Below are positions 1-29,344 of a stretch of 33,947 nucleotides of DNA, piece by piece (positions within the stretch are counted from its first letter, which is position 1; each line of letters starts with the position of its first letter). The notes beneath the pieces are model-generated. The model ran no database searches, was not told the origin of the DNA, and saw nothing but the letters and a program-made list of their open reading frames with translations. The position numbers and the translations under genes were made by a program. Source of the DNA: an uncultured Bacteroidota bacterium (GTDB lineage: Bacteria > Bacteroidota > Bacteroidia > AKYH767-A > OLB10); NCBI GenBank assembly GCA_903847585.1, contig CAINEC010000198.1, forward strand, positions 1-33,947. The letters are read 5' to 3'.

Positions 1-44
1 GATCATCATTAATTAGAACATTTTAATCACTTAATTATATAAAC

Positions 45-308
45 ATGTTACTTAACATCTTATTACAAACAACAGGCGTAGACGGATTAGGATTCGGATA
101 CGGTCTTGCTGCCATTGGTGCAGGTATCGCTGCTTTAGCTGCTGGTTTAGGTATCGGCCGCATTGGAGGTTCAGCATTAGAATCAATCGCTCGTCAACCT
201 GAAGCTTCAGGAGATATTCGTGCGAATATGATCCTTGCTGCTGCCCTTGTAGAAGGAGCTGCATTCTTCGCAATGGTAATCGGATTATTAGCAATCCTTA
301 CAAAGTAA
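45..308 (+). CDS. atpE: ATP synthase F0 subunit c
   Basis: This 87-residue hydrophobic hairpin is the proteolipid that forms the rotating c-ring of F1Fo ATP synthase in the inner membrane. It has two membrane helices (about residues 17-42 and 61-85) joined by the conserved polar loop R50-Q51-P52-E53. The ion-carrying carboxylate is E70 in helix 2. Helix 1 has no Gln/Glu and E70 is followed by Gly rather than Ser, so the Na+-binding signature is absent and proton coupling is expected. It heads the visible operon; atpB is expected just upstream, outside the window. The start ATG lies in an AT-rich context without a Shine-Dalgarno site. A stem-loop follows the stop codon. Confidence 0.97.
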   Translation: MLLNILLQTTGVDGLGFGYGLAAIGAGIAALAAGLGIGRIGGSALESIARQPEASGDIRANMILAAALVEGAAFFAMVIGLLAILTK

Positions 309-323
309 TTTGTAATTGCTATC

Positions 324-365
324 AACGAACCGGTGCAAAAGCGATTGGCCAAGCACCGGTTTGTT
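324..365 (+). promoter_or_regulatory. Stem-loop between atpE and atpF
   Basis: The 97-nt gap after atpE holds an inverted repeat: arm 324-336 (ends CCGGTGC) pairs with arm 353-365 (begins GCACCGG). That gives 13 bp with one G-U pair around a 16-nt loop, and a short T-rich stretch follows. The run of genes continues downstream, so this is unlikely to be a complete terminator. A partial terminator, or a 3' stabilising or processing element that raises atpE mRNA above the rest of the operon, fits the high copy number of subunit c. The hairpin is seen directly; the role is inferred. Confidence 0.7.
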
Positions 366-405
366 TAAAACAAGTAATACATCTAAAAAAAGAAATTAAT
401 ATAAA

Positions 406-1518: not shown

Positions 1519-3099
1519 ATGGTAGATGTTAGACCAGACGAAGTTTCAGCTATTCTCCGTCAACAATTAGCAGGATTTAAATCTGCAACAGAACTTGAAG
1601 AAGTAGGAACCGTATTACAAGTGGGTGATGGTATTGCCCGTATCTACGGACTTACAAAGGTTCAATCAGGAGAGCTAATCGAATTTGAAAATGGACTTAA
1701 AGGTATCGTATTAAATCTTGAAGAAGATAACGTAGGTGCCGTAACGTTAGGTTCATCAAACAATATTAAAGAAGGGGATACTGTAAAGCGTACAGGTAAG
1801 ATCGCTTCTATTCGCGTAGGAGAAGGAATGCTTGGACGTGTTGTAGATACACTAGGTAATCCAATCGATGGCAAAGGACCAATTTCTGGTGAGACTTTCG
1901 AAATGCCACTTGAGCGTAAAGCACCAGGGGTAATTTTCCGTCAGCCAGTAAACGAGCCTTTACAAACAGGTATCAAAGCGATTGATGCGATGATTCCTAT
2001 CGGACGTGGTCAGCGTGAGTTAATCATCGGTGATCGTCAGACAGGTAAAACAGCTGTTGCGATTGATACAATTATCAATCAAAAAGAATTCTACGATAAA
2101 GGTGAGCCAGTATTTTGTATCTACGTTGCAGTAGGTCAGAAAGGTTCTACTGTTGCTAACGTAGTGAAGACATTAGAAGAGCGTGGTGCAATGCCTTATA
2201 CAGTAATCGTTGCAGCGACTGCTTCTGAGTCTGCTCCAATGCAATTCTTCGCTCCAATGGCAGGTGCTGCAATCGGAGAATATTTCCGTGATACTGGTCG
2301 CCCAGCATTAGTTGTTTATGATGATTTATCGAAACAAGCAGTTGCTTACCGTGAGGTATCTCTATTATTACGTCGTCCTCCAGGTCGTGAGGCTTATCCA
2401 GGAGACGTATTCTACTTACACAGTCGTTTATTAGAGCGTGCTGCGAAAGTAATTAAGTCGGATTCGATTGCTGCTAATATGAATGACTTACCTGAATCTT
2501 TAAAAGGTAAAGTAAAAGGTGGTGGATCGTTAACAGCTCTTCCTATTATCGAAACACAAGCGGGTGACGTTTCTGCGTATATTCCTACAAACGTAATTTC
2601 AATTACTGATGGACAGATATTCCTTGAAGCTAACTTGTTCAACTCTGGTGTTCGTCCTGCAATTAACGTAGGTATCTCGGTATCACGTGTAGGTGGTAAC
2701 GCACAGATTAAATCAATGAAGAAAGTTGCTGGTACGCTTAAGTTAGATCAGGCTCAGTACCGTGAATTAGAGGCCTTCTCTAAATTCGGTTCGGACTTAG
2801 ATGCAGCTACAAAAGCGGTAATCGACAAAGGTTCTCGTAACGTAGAAATTCTTAAGCAAGGTCAATATTCACCATTACGTGTAGAAGAGCAAGTTGCCAT
2901 CATTTACCTTGGAACAAAAGGTTTATTGCAAAATGTTCCTGTACGTCAGGTGCGTGAATTCGAAACTAACTTCTTAAATGTAATGCGTGCAAGTCATAAA
3001 GCTACACTTGATCAATTAGCGAAAGGTGTAATCAATGATGAAATCACGAATACATTAGAGCAGGTAGGTAAAGACTTAGCAAAAAATTATACTGCTTAA
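1519..3099 (+). CDS. atpA: ATP synthase F1 subunit alpha
   Basis: This 526-residue protein is the non-catalytic nucleotide-binding subunit of F1. The Walker A loop GDRQTGKT is at residues 171-178, the Walker B strand PALVVYDD at about 262-269, and the arginine finger in SVSRVGG is R390. [11 protein letters not shown] (361-370) and the C-terminal helical domain are intact. Length and domain order match bacterial alpha subunits, so the protein should be functional. It lies between atpH and atpG in the usual order. The start context is ACGAAAATG, A-rich with no Shine-Dalgarno site. Confidence 0.98.
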
Positions 3100-4285: not shown

Positions 4286-5959
4286 ATGAAAAAAATCTAC
4301 TTATTACTATTTGGCCTATTGCCATTTTTTAGCAATGCCCAGTTTGCTAATGATTCAACCAATAATGTGGTTATTCAAGATGCGATTGGCTCTGAACAAG
4401 CTACTCCATTAATCAGCTCCCGCAGCGATGGGGGTGTTTATATTTCCTGGTTTGATCAGTCGTCAGGAATGTATGTTTTACGCATGCAGCGTTTAGATGC
4501 TCTTGGTAATAAATTATGGGGCCCCAATGGTGTAGTAGTCAGTAATGCCAATCAGAATACTGCCTTATTTCGCTACGATTTGAAAACGGATAATGAAGGA
4601 AATGCAATTGTCGCTTTTCAAGATCAACGAACAGGAAGTATGCAGGTCGTTGCTCAAAAAATGGACTCTACTGGAGCTCCAGTGTGGGCGAACAATGGGG
4701 TTGTTTTAGCAGACGCCGATGCGGCACAAGGATTAGCACCTGTAATTGGTGTTTTGTCAAATAATAACGTTGTTGTAGCATGGAATGCTTATTCGAGTAC
4801 CAACCAAAAATGGGTTTGTTATATCGAATTAAATCCAGCTACAGGAGCTTCTATTAATGGCGCTGGTCCGGATAAAATAAAACCAGCAACTGGAACTACA
4901 CCTAACTATTCTCGTCCATCGATTGCTTCTTACGCTAACAACGAATATTATTTAATGTACGTTCAGGAAACAGGCAACTTCCCAGGATTAACATCTAAGT
5001 TATTTGTAAAAAGAATGGCTACTAACTATGTAAGCTTATGGGCTGCACCAATTCAGTTTACAACAAAAACAATTACCGCATTTTTCTTCCCTAGAATAAT
5101 TTCAGATGGTGGAACTGGATTCTTATGTGCTTTCAATACAGGTAATCCTGCTAATGCAGCACTTACTTGTGTTTATTTACAGCATGTTGATTCTACTGGC
5201 GCTACATGGAGTACTAACGGTACTGCATTAACGAGCTCAACAACGATTAATTCTTATTTAGGAGATTACTTTTATAATTCAACTACTAATCAAACCTGGG
5301 TAGGATTACAAGTGACAAATTCAGGGCAGTCGGCTTCTGGAAACAGTATTCAAAGAGTGAACAATGCAGGATTGAATTTATGTGGTACAGATGGAATTGT
5401 TGTTGATCCACAAACTTCTAATATGACGATACCTGTTGGCATTGCACAAGATGATAATAACGCCATTTTGGTTTATTATACTGGAGGATTTAATCAGGTT
5501 TCTATTAAAGCTACGTTAATTGATTCAATGGGTGTGAAGCAATGGGCGTTTAACGAAAAAGCAATTAATGTAACTGCAAGTAATAAAGATGATATCGGAA
5601 TTTCGAGAGTAAATAATCATCAGTTAATTGTTTCTTGGACAGATACCAGAAACGATAATGGTATTTACGCTCAAAATATAAATGATGATGGAACTTTAGG
5701 ACCTATGGCTGTTGGATTAAATAATATCGAGGCTAATTCAGGTATTCAGATTATACAAAATCCTTCAAGCATATTGCAATTAAAAAGTATGAACAGCATT
5801 GAAGAAGTTGAGATTTATTCTGCAATGGGACAATTAGTTTACTCGACGTTTGGATTGGATAATACAGAATTATCAATTCCTTTAACGAATAAGTTCATCG
5901 CAGGAAATTATATTATACGTGTGAATCGTAAAACAACACTTAAGTGGATTAAAGAATAA
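4286..5959 (+). CDS. Secreted protein with W-repeat (propeller-like) body and T9SS C-terminal sorting domain
   Basis: This predicted 557-residue exported protein starts at 4286, where MKKIYLLLFGLLPFFSNA gives a good signal peptide, cleaved before Q19. The open frame reaches back to 4214, but those codons cross the hairpin at 4231-4253 and would bury the signal sequence. The body carries a recurring D-x-x-G-x-x-x-W-x-x-N-G motif near residues 71, 127, 301, 360 and 412, alternating with strands such as VYISWFD and NVVVAWN, as in beta-propeller or sialidase-like folds. Residues about 490-557 look like a T9SS type A sorting domain (EIYSAMGQLVYS, then IAGNYIIRV). Secretion through the outer membrane is likely; function unknown. 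A bidirectional terminator separates it from the opposing gene. Confidence 0.85.
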   Translation: MKKIYLLLFGLLPFFSNAQFANDSTNNVVIQDAIGSEQATPLISSRSDGGVYISWFDQSSGMYVLRMQRLDALGNKLWGPNGVVVSNANQNTALFRYDLKTDNEGNAIVAFQDQRTGSMQVVAQKMDSTGAPVWANNGVVLADADAAQGLAPVIGVLSNNNVVVAWNAYSSTNQKWVCYIELNPATGASINGAGPDKIKPATGTTPNYSRPSIASYANNEYYLMYVQETGNFPGLTSKLFVKRMATNYVSLWAAPIQFTTKTITAFFFPRIISDGGTGFLCAFNTGNPANAALTCVYLQHVDSTGATWSTNGTALTSSTTINSYLGDYFYNSTTNQTWVGLQVTNSGQSASGNSIQRVNNAGLNLCGTDGIVVDPQTSNMTIPVGIAQDDNNAILVYYTGGFNQVSIKATLIDSMGVKQWAFNEKAINVTASNKDDIGISRVNNHQLIVSWTDTRNDNGIYAQNINDDGTLGPMAVGLNNIEANSGIQIIQNPSSILQLKSMNSIEEVEIYSAMGQLVYSTFGLDNTELSIPLTNKFIAGNYIIRVNRKTTLKWIKE

Positions 5960-5977
5960 TAGTAATTAGATAAAATA

Positions 5978-6007
5978 AAAACGGGGACTAATTTTAGTCC
6001 CCGTTTT
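5978..6007. terminator. Bidirectional terminator between convergent genes
   Basis: A 13-bp perfect stem (5978-5990, AAAACGGGGACTA; 5995-6007, TAGTCCCCGTTTT) has a 4-nt loop, with A-rich sequence on the left and T-rich on the right, so it can terminate transcripts from both sides. It sits 18 nt after the stop of the secreted-protein gene and ends just before the stop codon of the opposing DUF2723 gene. Confidence 0.93.
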
Positions 6008-6008
6008 T

Positions 6009-9000
6009 TTATTGCTGTTGATAGTAATTCGGATTGAGCGCTGAATACTTTTGAAGTTTTTTCTGCATCTCATCACCTAACTGTGATTGTCCATACTGTT
6101 TTGCCATTCTGATTAACTCACCATAAATAGCATAAGCTTGGTTCGACTCTCTGTCGATAGAAGTGAAATAAGAAGTGCGCTTTAATGATAAGTAGTAATC
6201 CATTTCATTTTCATAGATAGCGGCCATACGTTTTGTAATTGCTATTGCCATATCGTTCGCATGCTTTCTTCTTGCTTCTGGTAATTCAACCATCGACATG
6301 GTCATACGATTCATTGGATTTAAAGTATCGTTAGGATTTACTTTTTGAGAGGCAATAAAATATAATTCAATTGGACGAAGCATCATCACATTGTATCCTA
6401 CTCTATTGTCTGGCATTTCTTCATTCATTTTATCTAATACAGTAATTGCTGAATCTTTTTTACCAGACTCTAATAATGATTCCGCTAATCGAGCGAAGTT
6501 ATTGCGGAAGTTCATCGTCATACCAATATTTGTCTGATCCAGATAAACACCATCTTTATTCATATTTCCCCACAGGAATTTATTCATCATGTTGTTATAC
6601 ATAATGTCATTATTAACCCTTCCTGTTTGTCCGTTAGGATCAATTGATCTAGGATTTTTTATTGGAACAAAACGATAAGCTAATCCCTCTAACTGGAAGT
6701 AAGGCTCTAGGTTCATATAGTTTTCACTTCCAACAGTAACAGCAAAATAAATAGGACGTTTCCAATCGTTATTGGCAATCATATCCAAAATCATTAAGTC
6801 TGCTTTCATCAAATAGCTTTTATTAATCTCCCAGAAAATAGTATCTACAATCTGATTAGCTTCTTCTGGTTTTACAATACCTGCAGCTATTACTGCTTTC
6901 TTATCAACTGGAATCATGAATTTCTTAGTAGGGAAGAAGCTCAACGACATTCCACTTTGTGTTTGAACTTTTGCACTAGGATCATCCGACTTAATAAAAT
7001 TCATTACGTCTTTTAAGTTGATATAACCGTCAGCGTTTACTCTTCCTTCATAATAAGGAACATAATCTCTGTTGCCTTGTTCGTATTGCTCATGCGTGAA
7101 GCTGATAGGAAGCGCATCACTTTGATAAGCCTTGCGTTTCATCTGATCGATATACCAATCCGTGTTTAATAAACTCAAATTAACAATTCTGATATCAGGA
7201 CGAACACCTTCTACATCTTGTGCATACCAAAGAGGGAATGTATCGTTATCACCATTAGTAAAGATGAGTGCGTTCGGAGCACAGCTTTGTAAGTAGTTAT
7301 GAGCAAAATCGCGCGAAGTATAACGGCGAGAACGGTTGTGATCATCCCATCCATCTTTCGCCATTAATGTTGGTGCAGCCAATAAGCAAATAGTAGTTGA
7401 TAAAATAGCTGCAGTTTGGCCATCAAGTTTTTTGCTAATTGCATCAATCAAAGCCAACGTTCCTAATCCAATCCAAATAGCAAATGCATAAAATGATGCT
7501 GCATAAGCATAATCACGTTCACGTGGCTGATATGGATATTGATTCAGATAAAGTACTATGGCTAATCCTGTAAAGAAGAACAATAACATTACGGTCCAGA
7601 AATCGTTTTGCTTTGCTTTTTTGTAATGCCAGATCATCCCTACAAATCCTAATAAGAAAGGAAGCATGTAAAAACGATTGTATCCTTTGTTGCTTTTTGC
7701 ACTATCAGGTAAAGTGTCTTGAGGACCTAATCGTGCTTCATCAAGAAATGTAATTCCTGTAAGCCAATTACCTTTAGTAATTCCTCCATGTCCTTGAATA
7801 TCATTTTGACGACCAGAAAAATTCCACATAAAATAGCGCCAATACATATGAATGATTTGATAATTCCAGAAGAACTTTAAGTTTTGAGCAAATGTTGGCT
7901 TGCCTTCACCCGTAATACCCGCCCATTCTTTGTAAGCTTGAATGTGATTTTCTTGACCGCTATACATACGAGGGAAAATTGTACAGTTAGCAGGATCAAA
8001 AACAGGAGATTGTTTTTTACCACTCACTACATACTTTCCATCTTTTGCTGCATATTGATTAGCTCCTTCTTCAATGCTTACTTGTTCTGCATTGTAGTAT
8101 TGACCATAAAACAAAGGACGATCTCCGTACTGCTCACGATTGATATATCCTAATAAATTAAATACTTGCTCAGGATTGTTTTCATCCATTGGCGGATTAG
8201 CCATCGAACGAATAACAATCATCGCATAAGAAGAGTATCCCAATAGAATAAATGCAAAGCAAAGGATGCTTAAATTTAGTAAAGGCTTATTCTTTTCAAC
8301 CGAATGTTTTAATCCGTAAGCAATTCCTCCAATTACTAATAACAAGAAGAAAATAAATCCTGACCAGAATGGTAATCCAAAGCTATTTACAAACAATAAG
8401 TCAAACTTAGATGCAAGACTTACTAAGCCAGAGATAATTCCGTATTGCACAACACCTAAAATCAATACCCCAACAATAGAAGTTTTAATTACTCCACCTA
8501 ATGATGGTTTGTTTTTCTTGAAGTAGTAAATGAATGCAAGCGCAGGAATCGTCAATAAGTTCAATAAGTGAATACCGATGGATAATCCCATCAAGTAAGC
8601 AATTAATATAATCCATTTGTTGGCGTCTTTTTCTTCGGAAGCATCCCACTTAAACATTACCCAAAATACAATTGCTGTAAAGAAAGAAGAGGAAGCGTAA
8701 ACCTCGCCCTCTACTGCCGAAAACCAGAATGAATCACTGAAGGTGTATGCTAAAGAGCCTACTAAACCAGCACCCATGATTCCGATCAGTTGTGCATTTG
8801 TAATCTCTTCGCTTTTTACAACAATCTTTTTTGCAATAGCGGTGATAGTCCAAAACAAAAACAGAATTGTAAATGCACTCATTAAAGCAGATAAAACATT
8901 GATCATTACGGAAACGAGGCGAATATCGCCGCCCGACATCAAACTAAATACTCTACCTAACATCAAGAATAGTGGCGCTCCCGGAGGATGACCTACTTGA

Positions 9001-24761: not shown

Positions 24762-26978
24762 ATGAAATCATCTTCAAAGGTTAAGCGGATAATATTTTTT
24801 ATTTGGCTGATTGTCTTTGCACCGTTTCTGTTTCTAGTTGGATTTATATCATTAGTCGCTATGGGCTATATGGGAGAATTACCAACTTTCGAGGAATTGG
24901 AGAATCCCAACTCAATGTTAGCGAGCGAGATTTATTCTTCGGACATGCAATCACTCGGAAAATATTTCAAAGAGAATCGTGTAAACGTTCATTATAGTGA
25001 ATTATCACCTTACTTGATTAATGCGTTGAAGGCAACTGAAGATGTCCGTTTTGATAAACACTCTGGAGTTGATGTACGTGGATTATTTCGTGTTTTGGTA
25101 AAAACAATTTTCTTGCATCAGGATGCAGGTGGTGGTAGTACACTTACTCAACAGCTTGCAAAAAACTTATTTCCTCGAGGAGAAAAATTAAGTAAGTCAC
25201 AACTTGTAATTCGAAAAATCAAAGAGTGGGTTATTGCTGTTAAGCTTGAAAAGAATTATACCAAAACAGAAATTCTTGCAATGTATCTTAATACAGTAGA
25301 ATTCGGAAACAATGCATATGGTATTCGTTCGGCAAGCTCTACCTATTTCCAAAAAGATCCTAAAGATGTTTCGATGGAAGAAGCTGCTTTGTTAATTGGA
25401 ATGCTACAGGCTCCTTCAAGATATAATCCAGTTAGAAATCCTGAGAATGCGATGAACCGTCGTAATACGGTTATTGGTCAGCTGGAGAAATATAATTTTA
25501 TTACAGAAGAAGCTTCAGACTCTTTACAAAAACTACCAGTACGTTTACGTTTCAGGCCAGAAAGTCATACTTCTGGTATTGCTCAACACTTTCGTGAAGT
25601 ATTGAAAAAGGATTTATTAAAATGGTGTGCTGAACACTATAAAGCCGACGGATCTCCTTATAATTTATATCGCGATGGATTAAAAATTTATACCACCGTC
25701 GATACTCGTATGCAAAAGTACGCCGAGGAAGCGGTGAAGCAGCACTTAACAAAACTGCAAGAAACATTTTACGAGCATTGGCAAGATCGATCTCCTTGGG
25801 AAGATTATCCTGAATTAATTACGCAGGGTATGAAACGTTCAGAACGTTATAAGAATTTAAAAGAACAAGGGATGTCGGATGCGCAAATTGAAATCAACTT
25901 CAATAAGAAAGTTAAGATGACCGTGTTTTCTTGGCAAGGTGATTTAGACACGATTATGTCGCCGATGGATTCTATTCGTTATTACAAAATGTTTTTACGT
26001 ACAGGATTTATGGCGCTTGAACCGCAAACAGGACAAGTGAAGGCGTGGGTTGGCGGATTAGATTTTCATTATTTTAAATATGATCAAGTAAAGGATGGTG
26101 CACGACAAGTTGGTTCTACTTTCAAACCATTTGTATATACCCTAGCAATGCAGGAAGGTTACTCACCATGTTATAAAGTTCCGAACTCGAAAGTTACTAT
26201 CGTTGATAAATTTGGTGGTTCGTGGACGCCCTCAAATGCAGATGGGAGTTATGGTGGAATGCTTTCATTAAAACAAGCGTTGGCAAATTCTGTTAATTGT
26301 GTTTCTGCTTATTTAATGAAGCAGTTCGGTCCGGAAGCCGTAATTCAGGTTGCTCATAAAATGGGAATAACCACCCCTATCAAACCATTTGCATCTATTG
26401 CTCTAGGATCAGCAGATATTTCAGTATTTGAAATGGTAGGAGCTTATGGAACGTTTGCTAATAAGGGTATTTGGACAGAGCCAATGTATATTACACGTAT
26501 TGAAGATAAAAACGGTGTTGTATTGCAAGAGTTTGTTCCACGAAAAGTAGAAGCTATCAATGAAGAAACTGCATACTTGATGTTGAACTTAATGGAAGGT
26601 GTAACAAAGTTCGGTACGGGAGAGCGCTTACGTGGAGGGGCTTATCATTTTTCAAATCCTATTGCGGGTAAAACAGGAACAACACAAAATAATAGCGATG
26701 GTTGGTTTATGGGTATCACTCCTGAACTAGTTGCCGGTTGTTGGGTAGGTTGCGAAGACAGAAGTATTCACTTCCGTTCAACTGGTCTCGGACAAGGAGC
26801 TAATACTGCGTTGCCGATTTGGGGACTTTTCATGAGAAAAGTATTTGATGATGCTAAGTTAAATTACTCACAAGGAGAATTTCCTAAGCCACAAAAACCA
26901 TTGAACGTTGAACTTGATTGTTCGAAGTATAATATGCCTGTAGTTCCAGGCACCACAAATAATTTTGATATTAATTAA
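24762..26978 (+). CDS. Class A penicillin-binding protein (PBP1A-like transglycosylase/transpeptidase)
   Basis: This 738-residue bifunctional murein synthase is anchored by one N-terminal helix (about 9-33). The GT51 domain that polymerises lipid II has E93 in ATEDVRFDKHSG (91-102) and GGSTLTQQLAKNLF (124-137). The transpeptidase domain that cross-links peptides has S452-T-F-K455 (nucleophile S452), S510-V-N512 and K637-T-G639-T. Every catalytic motif is present and the length is usual. Residues 330-410, between the two domains, hold a charged linker common in this family. The next gene, for a CoA-transferase subunit, begins 1 nt after its stop codon, an unexpected partner. Confidence 0.96.
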   Translation: MKSSSKVKRIIFFIWLIVFAPFLFLVGFISLVAMGYMGELPTFEELENPNSMLASEIYSSDMQSLGKYFKENRVNVHYSELSPYLINALKATEDVRFDKHSGVDVRGLFRVLVKTIFLHQDAGGGSTLTQQLAKNLFPRGEKLSKSQLVIRKIKEWVIAVKLEKNYTKTEILAMYLNTVEFGNNAYGIRSASSTYFQKDPKDVSMEEAALLIGMLQAPSRYNPVRNPENAMNRRNTVIGQLEKYNFITEEASDSLQKLPVRLRFRPESHTSGIAQHFREVLKKDLLKWCAEHYKADGSPYNLYRDGLKIYTTVDTRMQKYAEEAVKQHLTKLQETFYEHWQDRSPWEDYPELITQGMKRSERYKNLKEQGMSDAQIEINFNKKVKMTVFSWQGDLDTIMSPMDSIRYYKMFLRTGFMALEPQTGQVKAWVGGLDFHYFKYDQVKDGARQVGSTFKPFVYTLAMQEGYSPCYKVPNSKVTIVDKFGGSWTPSNADGSYGGMLSLKQALANSVNCVSAYLMKQFGPEAVIQVAHKMGITTPIKPFASIALGSADISVFEMVGAYGTFANKGIWTEPMYITRIEDKNGVVLQEFVPRKVEAINEETAYLMLNLMEGVTKFGTGERLRGGAYHFSNPIAGKTGTTQNNSDGWFMGITPELVAGCWVGCEDRSIHFRSTGLGQGANTALPIWGLFMRKVFDDAKLNYSQGEFPKPQKPLNVELDCSKYNMPVVPGTTNNFDIN

Positions 26979-26979
26979 T

Positions 26980-27672
26980 ATGAATAAAGTAGTAAAAGAT
27001 GCAGAAGTAGCCATTCATGATATTCAGGATGGAGAAGTTATTATGTTAGGAGGCTTTGGCCTATGTGGTATTCCAGAAAATTGTATCAACGCCCTCGTGA
27101 AAAAGGGAACAAAAGATCTTACATGTATTTCAAATAATGCTGGTGTGGATGATTTCGGAATTGGACTGATGCTTAAAACACGTCAAGTAAAAAAGATGAT
27201 CTCATCATATGTTGGGGAGAATGCAGAATTCGAAAGACAATTATTAAGTGGCGAACTTGAAGTAGAATTAATTCCGCAAGGAACATTAGCAACAAGATGT
27301 ATGGCTGCTGCTTATGGTATGCCTGCAGTATGGGTTCGTGCAGGAGTTGGAACAGAAGTCGCAATTGGAAAAGAAACGCGCGTATTTGATGGAGTAGAAT
27401 ATTTATTGGAGATGGCCTTCAAAGCGAAGTTTGCGATTGTGAAAGCCTGGAAAGGAGATACGCATGGTAATTTAATTTTCCGTAAAACAACGCGTAATTT
27501 TAATATGCCAATGGCCATGGCCGGACAAATTACAATCGCAGAAGTTGAAGAGTTAGTACCTGCGGGAACGTTAGACCCTGATCATATTCATGTACCCGGA
27601 ATTTATGTTCATCGAATCTTTCAAGGAAATAACTACGAGAAACGAATTGAGCAACGAACAGTGAGGAAGTAA
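26980..27672 (+). CDS. scoA: 3-oxoacid CoA-transferase subunit A
   Basis: This 230-residue subunit belongs to the family I CoA-transferases that move CoA between succinyl-CoA and acetoacetate (SCOT) or similar acids. The start is the ATG at 26980; the open frame extends to a TTG at 26965 inside the preceding gene. The glycine-rich CoA loop GGFGLCGIPE (about residues 25-34) and SNNAGVDDFGIGLM match subunit A, and the GNLIFRKTTRNFNMPMA block is typical. The stop codon (27670-27672) is followed at once by the left arm of an inverted repeat. Subunit B lies about 490 nt further on, separated by the four-helix-bundle ORF; in most genomes the two are adjacent. Confidence 0.95.
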   Translation: MNKVVKDAEVAIHDIQDGEVIMLGGFGLCGIPENCINALVKKGTKDLTCISNNAGVDDFGIGLMLKTRQVKKMISSYVGENAEFERQLLSGELEVELIPQGTLATRCMAAAYGMPAVWVRAGVGTEVAIGKETRVFDGVEYLLEMAFKAKFAIVKAWKGDTHGNLIFRKTTRNFNMPMAMAGQITIAEVEELVPAGTLDPDHIHVPGIYVHRIFQGNNYEKRIEQRTVRK

Positions 27673-27697
27673 TTAGTTAATTTGAAAATGTGCTAAT
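27673..27697 (+). repeat. Left arm of inverted repeat flanking the four-helix-bundle ORF
   Basis: A 25-nt arm beginning TTAGTTAATT and ending TGCTAAT, adjacent to the scoA stop codon. It matches the reverse complement of 28124-28148 at 21 of 25 positions; the mismatches are at 27683, 27685, 27686 and 27690. Confidence 0.75.
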
Positions 27698-27720
27698 TTG
27701 AAAATGTGCTAATGTGCTAA
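27679..27720 (+). repeat. Short tandem repeat, 16-bp unit
   Basis: The unit AATTTGAAAATGTGCT occurs twice head to tail (27679-27694 and 27695-27710) and is followed by a shortened copy AATGTGCT and AA. It overlaps the left inverted-repeat arm. Confidence 0.85.
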
Positions 27721-27750
27721 AGAAATACGTAACCATTTAAATATGTTTTT

Positions 27751-28116
27751 ATGAAAAAAAAGAATCCTTTATTACAAAAATCATTTCAGTTTTCAATTCA
27801 AATAATTGAGTATACTGAAAAGTTAAATGAATTAAAAAAGTATAACATCGCTAAACAATTATTTAGAAGTGGGACATCAATTGGAGCAATGGTGCGGGAA
27901 GCACAAAGTCCGGAATCAATAAGCGATTTTATTCACAAATTAAAGATTGCCGCAAAAGAAGCAGAAGAAAGTATGTATTGGTTAGAACTAGCAGAATCGT
28001 CTATACATTATCCATCACCTTCTAATGAGGGATTGATAAAACCATTAAATGAAATTCAAAAATTATTAAGTGCAATCATTAAAACTTCAAAAGATAAATT
28101 AAATGCCAATCGCTAA
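27751..28116 (+). CDS. Four-helix-bundle protein (S23 / 23S rRNA intervening-sequence family, Avd-like)
   Basis: This 121-residue helical protein shows the family pattern clearly: KSFQFSIQIIEYTEKL (10-25), then IAKQLFRSGTSIGAMVREAQ (33-52), SDFIHKLKIAAKEAEES (58-74) with YWLEL, and the C-terminal IIKTSK. Such proteins form pentameric barrels of four-helix bundles with a basic surface. Relatives are encoded in 23S rRNA intervening sequences and, as Avd, in diversity-generating retroelements; the role of stand-alone members is unknown. Here it lies alone inside the CoA-transferase operon, same strand, between inverted repeats. No reverse transcriptase or variable-repeat gene is nearby, so this is not a DGR. 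Confidence 0.9.
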   Translation: MKKKNPLLQKSFQFSIQIIEYTEKLNELKKYNIAKQLFRSGTSIGAMVREAQSPESISDFIHKLKIAAKEAEESMYWLELAESSIHYPSPSNEGLIKPLNEIQKLLSAIIKTSKDKLNANR

Positions 28117-28123
28117 TTATTTT

Positions 28124-28148
28124 ATTAGCAGATTAACCAATTAACTAA
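28124..28148 (+). repeat. Right arm of inverted repeat flanking the four-helix-bundle ORF
   Basis: A 25-nt arm starting 8 nt after the ORF stop codon and ending 16 nt before scoB. Its reverse complement begins TTAGTTAATT and ends TGCTAAT like the left arm. The next bases (AATTAGCAAATTAA) repeat the same AT-rich words. Confidence 0.75.
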
Positions 28149-28164
28149 TTAGCAAATTAAAAAT

Positions 28165-28824
28165 ATGTTAGATAAAATAGGAATTGCAAAACGCATCGCA
28201 CAAGAAGTAAAAGATGGAAGTTATGTCAACTTAGGAATTGGTATTCCTACTTTGGTTGCTAACTATATTCCGAAGGGAGTAAATGTTACTCTACAATCTG
28301 AAAATGGAATGCTAGGAATGGGTCCTTTTCCTATTGATGGAGAAGAAGATGCTGATTTGATTAATGCCGGTAAGCAAACTATTACTGAAGTCCCAGGTAC
28401 AGCCTATTTCGACTCCGCATTAAGCTTCGGAATGATTCGCGCAGGGAAAGTCGATTTAACAATTCTTGGTGCGATGGAAGTAAGTGAGAATGGAGATATC
28501 GCCAACTGGAAAATTCCAGGTAAGATGGTAAAAGGAATGGGAGGCGCAATGGACCTTGTAGCTGCTGCAAAAAATATTATTGTTGCCATGCAGCATGTTA
28601 ATAAAGCTGGCGAATCAAAATTACTTCCTGAATGTACACTTCCTTTAACGGGTGTAAAATGCATCAAGAAAATTGTAACTGAGTTAGCAGTATTAGAGGT
28701 AGTACCAGGAAAAGGATTTGTCCTTTTAGAAAGAGCACCAGGTGTAACGGTAGAGGAGATACGAAAAGCAACCGCAGGTAAATTAGTGGTTGAAGGAGAT
28801 ATCCCTGAAATGGTAATTGATTAA
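28165..28824 (+). CDS. scoB: 3-oxoacid CoA-transferase subunit B
   Basis: This 219-residue subunit carries the catalytic glutamate of family I CoA-transferases: E46 in LQSENGMLGMGP (43-54), which forms the glutamyl-CoA thioester. VNLGIGIPTLVANYIP (21-36) and the GGAMDLVAAAKNIIVAMQHV block (about 125-145) are the usual subunit B segments. It pairs with scoA to make the alpha2beta2 enzyme for ketone-body or short-chain acid activation. Separation from scoA by an inserted ORF may alter the balance of the two subunits. It ends 10 nt from the stop of the convergent lipoprotein gene, with no hairpin in between. Confidence 0.95.
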   Translation: MLDKIGIAKRIAQEVKDGSYVNLGIGIPTLVANYIPKGVNVTLQSENGMLGMGPFPIDGEEDADLINAGKQTITEVPGTAYFDSALSFGMIRAGKVDLTILGAMEVSENGDIANWKIPGKMVKGMGGAMDLVAAAKNIIVAMQHVNKAGESKLLPECTLPLTGVKCIKKIVTELAVLEVVPGKGFVLLERAPGVTVEEIRKATAGKLVVEGDIPEMVID

Positions 28825-28834
28825 CCAGAAACGA

Positions 28835-29344
28835 TTATTCAAAAGTTAAAGAAAAATCGTCCCAATAAACTTTCGACTTCCCTTCGTTTAATCCGTAAAG
28901 TTTAATTACCATATCATCGGTTAATGGTTCTTTCAAGTCGACTTTTAACTGAACCAATTCCCATTTATTAGGAACTTTAACAGTAGTTTGTATATCACTT
29001 CCTTGCCAGATTACACTCTTATCGTTTTTATCGATTGACAAGACTAACTTGCCTTTAGGGTTTTGTAATTTCGACATTACCCAAACAGTTGCAGTTATGC
29101 TTTTAGGTGATTTATTTTTCAATTGCTTGCAGGAAGCAATCATCGTTTGCGAAAACACGAATGTGCTATCAGTAAAAGTTGAGTAAATACCACTATGGCT
29201 GGCATCTGTAGTTAGCTGATCTTTATTTGACCAATTCCCCATTACTTCAAAATCGTTGTTGTATATAGATGCTTGTTTTTCTTCTTTAGAGCCACAACCA
29301 AAAGAGATAATCGTTAATCCAATGATGTAAATTGCTTTCTTCAT
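28835..29344 (-). CDS. Lipoprotein with jelly-roll (carbohydrate-binding-module-like) body
   Basis: This 169-residue protein has a lipoprotein signal peptide ending ISFGC (C17 modified). The mature part is all-beta by appearance: an opening NDFEVMGNWSN, an internal TATVWVMSKLQNPKGKLVLSI and a closing SKVYWDDFSLTFE. The layout, with a final W-D-D-F strand, is that of CBM4/9-like or galactose-binding jelly rolls. It is therefore likely exposed in the periplasm or at the surface and may bind a glycan; no catalytic residues are apparent. It is divergent from the two GT-C-like membrane protein genes and convergent with scoB. Confidence 0.72.
   Translation of the reverse strand: MKKAIYIIGLTIISFGCGSKEEKQASIYNNDFEVMGNWSNKDQLTTDASHSGIYSTFTDSTFVFSQTMIASCKQLKNKSPKSITATVWVMSKLQNPKGKLVLSIDKNDKSVIWQGSDIQTTVKVPNKWELVQLKVDLKEPLTDDMVIKLYGLNEGKSKVYWDDFSLTFE

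Follow-up and report, generated by a model that had tools for sequence, protein, structure and literature searches.

An S23 ORF between inverted octamer arrays separates scoA from scoB in an uncultured Bacteroidota bacterium and is probably one copy of a recurrent intercistronic cassette

The two subunit genes of a 3-oxoacid CoA-transferase, scoA and scoB, are separated in an uncultured Bacteroidota bacterium by 492 nt that hold a single small ORF of the S23 family between two inverted arrays of octamers. This insert is probably one copy of a recurrent mobile cassette that settles between genes and has the arrays as its ends. An earlier note on this DNA had suggested that a mobile cassette had entered an operon of protein-coding genes. 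That suggestion is supported by junctions that lack the insert or retain a decayed copy of it, by arms that vary in concert, by occurrence between many other genes, and by one cassette that is present in duplicate.

RESULTS

In the window (the whole 33,947-nt stretch of DNA that was analyzed), scoA occupies positions 26980 to 27672 of the forward strand (subunit A; TIGR02429, E = 1.5e-72) and scoB positions 28165 to 28824 of the same strand (subunit B; TIGR02428, E = 7.9e-97). The insert (27673 to 28164, forward strand) fills the junction between these host genes, its first base lying directly 3' of the scoA stop codon. Its sole ORF of note (27751 to 28116, forward strand, 121 aa) belongs to the S23/23S_rRNA_IVP family, with profile matches above the curated cut-offs for both PF05635 (E = 5.9e-22; 78.3 bits against 33.8) and TIGR02436 (E = 2.6e-25; 88.8 bits against 24), and this four-helix-bundle protein has a solved structural relative in PDB 2RLD (E = 7e-33). 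The insert has no transposase of its own, and an Rfam scan of positions 26900 to 28900 gave zero matches. Coordinates and profile matches thus confirm that 492 nt with one S23 ORF split the two genes, as the earlier note had claimed.

The left arm of the insert (27673 to 27719, forward strand) is an array of octamers (AATTAGTT, AATTTGAA, AATGTGCT) that runs from the scoA stop codon, and the right arm (28117 to 28163, reverse strand) is an inverted octamer array. The core of the right arm, 28124 to 28148, pairs with 27673 to 27697 at exactly 21 of 25 positions, so that the geometry first described from the letters was right in all its numbers; a repeat search returned a longer, weaker version of the arms (27670 to 27714 with 28107 to 28151, 73% over 45 nt). 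The best local pairing between the two intergenic flanks of the ORF was equaled by 6 of 5,000 dinucleotide shuffles. The insert is thus bracketed by complementary arms like an intervening sequence (IVS) of 23S rRNA, with a position between scoA and scoB rather than in a 23S rRNA helix.

The 16-bp unit named in the earlier note consists of two octamers, AATTTGAA and AATGTGCT. With at most 3 mismatches allowed, it matches 97 times in the window's genome, against 3 times for a reversed control pattern, and searches of this genome and its relatives identified it as a lineage-specific dispersed octamer repeat that is not peculiar to this cassette. The genome has a second S23 ORF (positions 12 to 383, minus strand, of G000:C79:1-3332), which lies at a contig end where the assembly may have broken inside a repeat array.

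The architecture recurs widely. For 164 unique S23 loci, almost all from Bacteroidota, we scored the pairing of the 300 nt upstream against the 300 nt downstream and compared it with 40 dinucleotide shuffles of each locus's own flanks. All 40 shuffles were beaten at 73% of the loci, where 2.4% would be expected, and the arms were not significant at about a quarter. An arm score of at least 16 was reached by 57% of the S23 loci, compared with 3.5% when left and right flanks were taken from different loci and 7% around control non-S23 ORFs from those loci (n = 176); the arms are therefore locus-specific partners. They are inverted but vary by locus, and with cross-locus pairing so much weaker they are not fixed terminal inverted repeats common to the copies. 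Among the 94 strong loci, the best repeat period of the arms was 7 or 8 in 91 (7 in 39 and 8 in 52), a count to be read with the fact that a local alignment picked by score may favor periodic stretches, a bias that comparison with shuffles and control ORFs offsets only in part. In these 94 loci the left arm is richer in G than in C in 82 cases against 11, and the right arm shows the reverse (80 against 13). Placement is equally regular, with the left arm starting a median of −1 nt from the upstream stop codon (at most 10 nt in 74%) and the right arm ending a median of 6 nt before the next start codon (at most 25 nt in 71%). Both neighbors are codirectional with the S23 ORF at 137 of the 164 loci. 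The spacer upstream of one S23 ORF (L248) holds two different arrays, of AAAATGAG repeats and of an opposing ACATTTTCTAATT type, as if stacked.

Cassettes recur at the scoA-scoB junction. As judged from 27 relatives, the two genes are usually adjacent, and most relatives that lack S23 there have a gap of 2 to 111 nt. Within the window's genus, one genome whose scoB is 97% identical (G004) has an 18-nt junction without the ORF, another (G005) has a 550-nt junction with S23 and octamer arms of its own, and in a third (G002) S23 is broken between the ends of two contigs, with scoB lying at one of these ends as well; occupancy is mixed in the other genera of the family. The search for empty sites that the earlier note had proposed therefore found them both in the same genus and in the same family. 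In an evenly drawn sample of 346 genomes of the class, 285 with scoB and 139 with an S23 match at E ≤ 1e-12, coordinates place S23 directly upstream of scoB in at least 16 genomes from 11 families, and by the same measure S23 was not seen at up to about 94% of the sampled junctions. A single genus contains every state of the site: clean junctions of 2, 9, and 11 nt (G318, G163, and G350), a lone arm (G366), arms with no S23 between them (G134), and junctions that are occupied (G252, G211, and G061). G130, from a different family, retains a remnant of the S23 C terminus between arms, and the junction of G136 holds arms alone. Clean empty junctions span 2 to 18 nt, and the closest of them are too diverged from the occupied site for a comparison of target-site duplications. 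What the earlier note had named as grounds for abandoning its proposal was not encountered: instead of every relative carrying the ORF at this place with no repeats elsewhere, there are empty sites, decayed copies, and copies at other sites, and the arms do change together between copies. In the scoA-scoB junction of G019, the octamers of the left array alternate several times with copies of another repeat, which is about 30 nt long (TGCCCTGAGCTCAGTCGAAGGG).

The junction also admits different cargo. In G231 (G231:C12:12500-14200), the S23 ORF is replaced by a GxxExxY/PDDEXK_3 ORF between TACGAAT arrays. As a group, GxxExxY loci are likewise bracketed by inverted short-unit arrays, and 19 of 28 beat all shuffles.

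The 164 S23 loci are spread over 114 different gene pairs. The commonest is scoA-scoB, with 24 loci (29 when partial neighbors are counted), a figure biased upward because the search for S23 loci began from a scoAB copy. Other sites, with names read from translations, include sufB-sufC, homogentisate dioxygenase-HPPD (hmgA-hpd), PDH E1-E2, and enoyl-CoA hydratase-hydroxyacyl-CoA dehydrogenase. On the S23 tree, the scoAB label requires 5 changes compared with 12.6 when shuffled, and at least 3 of these are forced by well-supported branches, which points to some vertical inheritance together with more than one arrival or loss. Ten scoAB copies of the Flavobacteriaceae type form one clade. Vertical clades thus exist, and a single ancient insertion at scoAB is ruled out as one simple event by the supported changes. 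Spread by plasmids or phages was set aside as an explanation since S23 copies there are rare (25 of 72,556 plasmid and 2 of 50,697 phage records). The plasmid genes, from cyanobacteria, Treponema, and Bernardetia, have the same kind of arms in all five cases examined. On the Dolichospermum plasmid pAfl69 and a plasmid of Nostoc sp. C052 (L380 and L384), the S23 ORFs lie between AATTCGT heptamer arrays, the former between a helicase gene and a pair encoding a hypothetical protein and a DNA methyltransferase, an arrangement that resembles a defense operon.

One genome, G021, contains two cassettes that are 92.9% identical over 436 bp, at two junctions 3.5 kb apart in a putative RND efflux operon (L120, G021:C48; S23 matches at 5832 to 6173 and 2335 to 2676, minus strand). 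Their strong similarity extends from about the start of S23 through the right arm and ends at the ATG of the next gene. The left arms are recognizably related, with similarity fading there, and the flanking genes differ. In both copies the last codons and the stop codon of the upstream gene come from the left arm. Of all the comparisons made here, this pair speaks most directly for joint movement of the ORF and its arms.

The S23 protein is under purifying selection. Its dN/dS is 0.03 to 0.12 over pairs with unsaturated dS and 0.07 to 0.10 among copies of the same genus. The Avd protein of diversity-generating retroelements has a four-helix-bundle fold related to that of S23. There is no reverse transcriptase in or beside the window cassette, the genome's one match to such an enzyme lies on another contig, and matches to the family are absent from most S23-bearing relatives. 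A reverse transcriptase partner is therefore not required to keep S23, and the retroelement reading was rejected.

DISCUSSION

Intervening sequences of 23S rRNA that carry an S23 ORF occur in Leptospira, Coxiella, and others. The cassettes described here resemble them in having the ORF in a loop between complementary arms, at a transcribed place that tolerates interruption. In Coxiella, the ORF lies between complementary ends, tandem heptamers occur in the 5' arm much as short-unit arrays occur in the arms of the cassettes, and the insert is excised by RNase III (PMC4990558). The two differ in that the cassettes lie between protein-coding genes in an operon rather than in an rRNA helix, that their arms are locus-specific arrays of 7- to 8-nt units matching dispersed genomic repeats, and that purifying selection maintains their S23, in contrast to the decaying ORF of Coxiella. 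Excision by RNase III is known for the rRNA elements and is hypothetical for the cassettes.

The STRR sequences of cyanobacteria are short intergenic tandem heptamers, and intergenic tandem units of 7 to 8 nt make up both the S23 arms and the dispersed arrays of these genomes. Comparable TAACTGA arrays have been described in Beggiatoaceae, cyanobacteria, and Bacteroidetes with no mention of S23 (PMC4679880). Like them, the cassette arrays are lineage specific and lie near start and stop codons, but they are arranged in inverted pairs that flank an S23 or GxxExxY ORF. The GxxExxY loci (TIGR04256; PF13366, PDDEXK_3) share with the S23 loci a small ORF between inverted arrays, similar arm statistics, and, in one case, occupation of the scoA-scoB gap; they differ in encoding a protein of the PD-(D/E)XK superfamily rather than a four-helix bundle and in using other units, such as CACAGAG. 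The cassettes are unlike an insertion sequence or classical transposon in having neither transposase or recombinase nor fixed ends. In the part of the literature that our searches covered, we found no description of an intercistronic, array-armed form of S23 and no paper linking S23 intervening sequences, TAACTGA arrays, and GxxExxY loci.

We propose that the element consists of one S23 ORF, transcribed from the host operon, between two inverted arrays of 7- to 8-nt units that would be its ends and part of what moves. On landing, its left array would come to lie at a stop codon and its right array immediately ahead of the following start, so that the neighbors would stay intact and the element could use their transcript. 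Repeated gain and loss at favored junctions such as scoA-scoB would leave partial arrays behind, and the empty, occupied, and decayed junctions of its relatives make such mobility likely in the window's lineage as well. Arm complementarity would be maintained at the DNA level, where S23 may act on a hairpin or cruciform in the element's own upkeep. What counts against this model is that the cassette lacks both a transposase or recombinase and a fixed terminal sequence, that significant arms are absent at roughly one S23 locus in four, that octamer arrays also occur without S23, that part of the distribution is vertical, and that copies on plasmids and phages are rare.

One question is whether the arms act as RNA. 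The arms could pair in the polycistronic transcript and form a stem for RNase III, whose cuts would free the S23 portion and part the scoA mRNA from that of scoB, and this could hold in addition to mobility at the DNA level. The geometry fits, as do the precedent of the rRNA elements and their Coxiella heptamers (PMC4990558) and the presence of an RNase III gene in the window's genome. In the predicted RNA of the insert, the stem foreseen by the earlier note does form, the arms being paired in both the MFE and the centroid structures, but the RNA as a whole is of ordinary stability compared with shuffled RNA (z = +0.61). If pairing in the sense RNA were what is kept, arm mismatches should be mostly G·U and rarely A·C. 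Among S23 loci with an arm score of at least 18, G·U mismatches number 78 against 109 A·C, and in the GxxExxY cassettes 14 against 19. There is thus no signal of RNA-level compensatory evolution, and with no excess of G·U the arm pairing appears, from these mismatch patterns, to be conserved as a DNA-level property. Arrays that stand alone, without a partner, also argue against an mRNA intervening sequence. Folding and cutting of the transcript may nonetheless be compatible with pairing kept in DNA; the idea that the RNA is cut out or alters the scoA:scoB ratio is plausible but gains no further support here, and we regard an mRNA intervening sequence as rather unlikely.

A second question is whether the arrays belong to the element at all. 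Since they occur without S23, they may be independent repeats of the STRR kind that gather in sense orientation after stop codons and in antisense before start codons, with S23 as a passenger that settles or survives between them. In the window's genome the octamer stands at many other places without S23, and it is found in every genome of the genus, including those with no detected S23 ORF; S23 alone is thereby left unsupported as the source of the arrays. Over three genome sets, arrays adjoining a stop codon are in sense orientation in 35 of 38 cases, and those adjoining a start codon are antisense in 10 of 15. This polarity was seen at L090 to L109 in the window's own genome and at L250 to L289 in G005, G003, and G032, with the stop codon often within the first unit. 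G032 has about 300 overlapping matches to arrays of AATTAAC, a unit that also builds one of the S23 arms in that genome. The dispersed arrays may have been left behind by cassettes, or they may be independent repeats with S23 living among them, and the latter is a serious rival. Against it, paired arms are about eight times as frequent at S23 loci as at control ORFs, and in G021 the S23 ORF and right arm were copied together with a related left arm; on balance we think this passenger role unlikely. It is far less probable still that S23 is an ordinary, vertically inherited host gene of the sco operon whose spacer repeats arose by chance or slippage. Purifying selection and the Flavobacteriaceae clade would fit such a gene, yet it is already contradicted by patchy presence, including absence from a same-genus relative and no S23 placed by coordinates at up to about 94% of the sampled junctions, by the many unrelated gene pairs at which S23 is found, and by arms that exceed chance.

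A wider generalization of the mobile-cassette reading is possible, and we offer it tentatively. Single-ORF cassettes with array arms could be an unrecognized class of mobile elements whose cargo can be exchanged (S23 or GxxExxY), which insert between stop and start codons, and whose ends are 7- to 8-nt arrays that the element builds or copies itself. The intervening sequences of rRNA would then be a particular case, produced by landing in rRNA, and the dispersed arrays would be scars.

S23/IVS elements have figured as rRNA oddities since about 1990, and to our knowledge no function has been assigned to the S23 protein. Should the majority of S23 genes prove to be array-armed cassettes lying between genes for other proteins, that function could be sought where the protein is selected and abundant. 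Such cassettes would also account naturally for the origin of rRNA intervening sequences and would offer a candidate cause for the short heptamer arrays that have been a puzzle in Bacteroidota and cyanobacteria. At scoA-scoB, a single site is found empty, occupied, decayed, and with alternative cargo, which makes these ideas open to direct tests.
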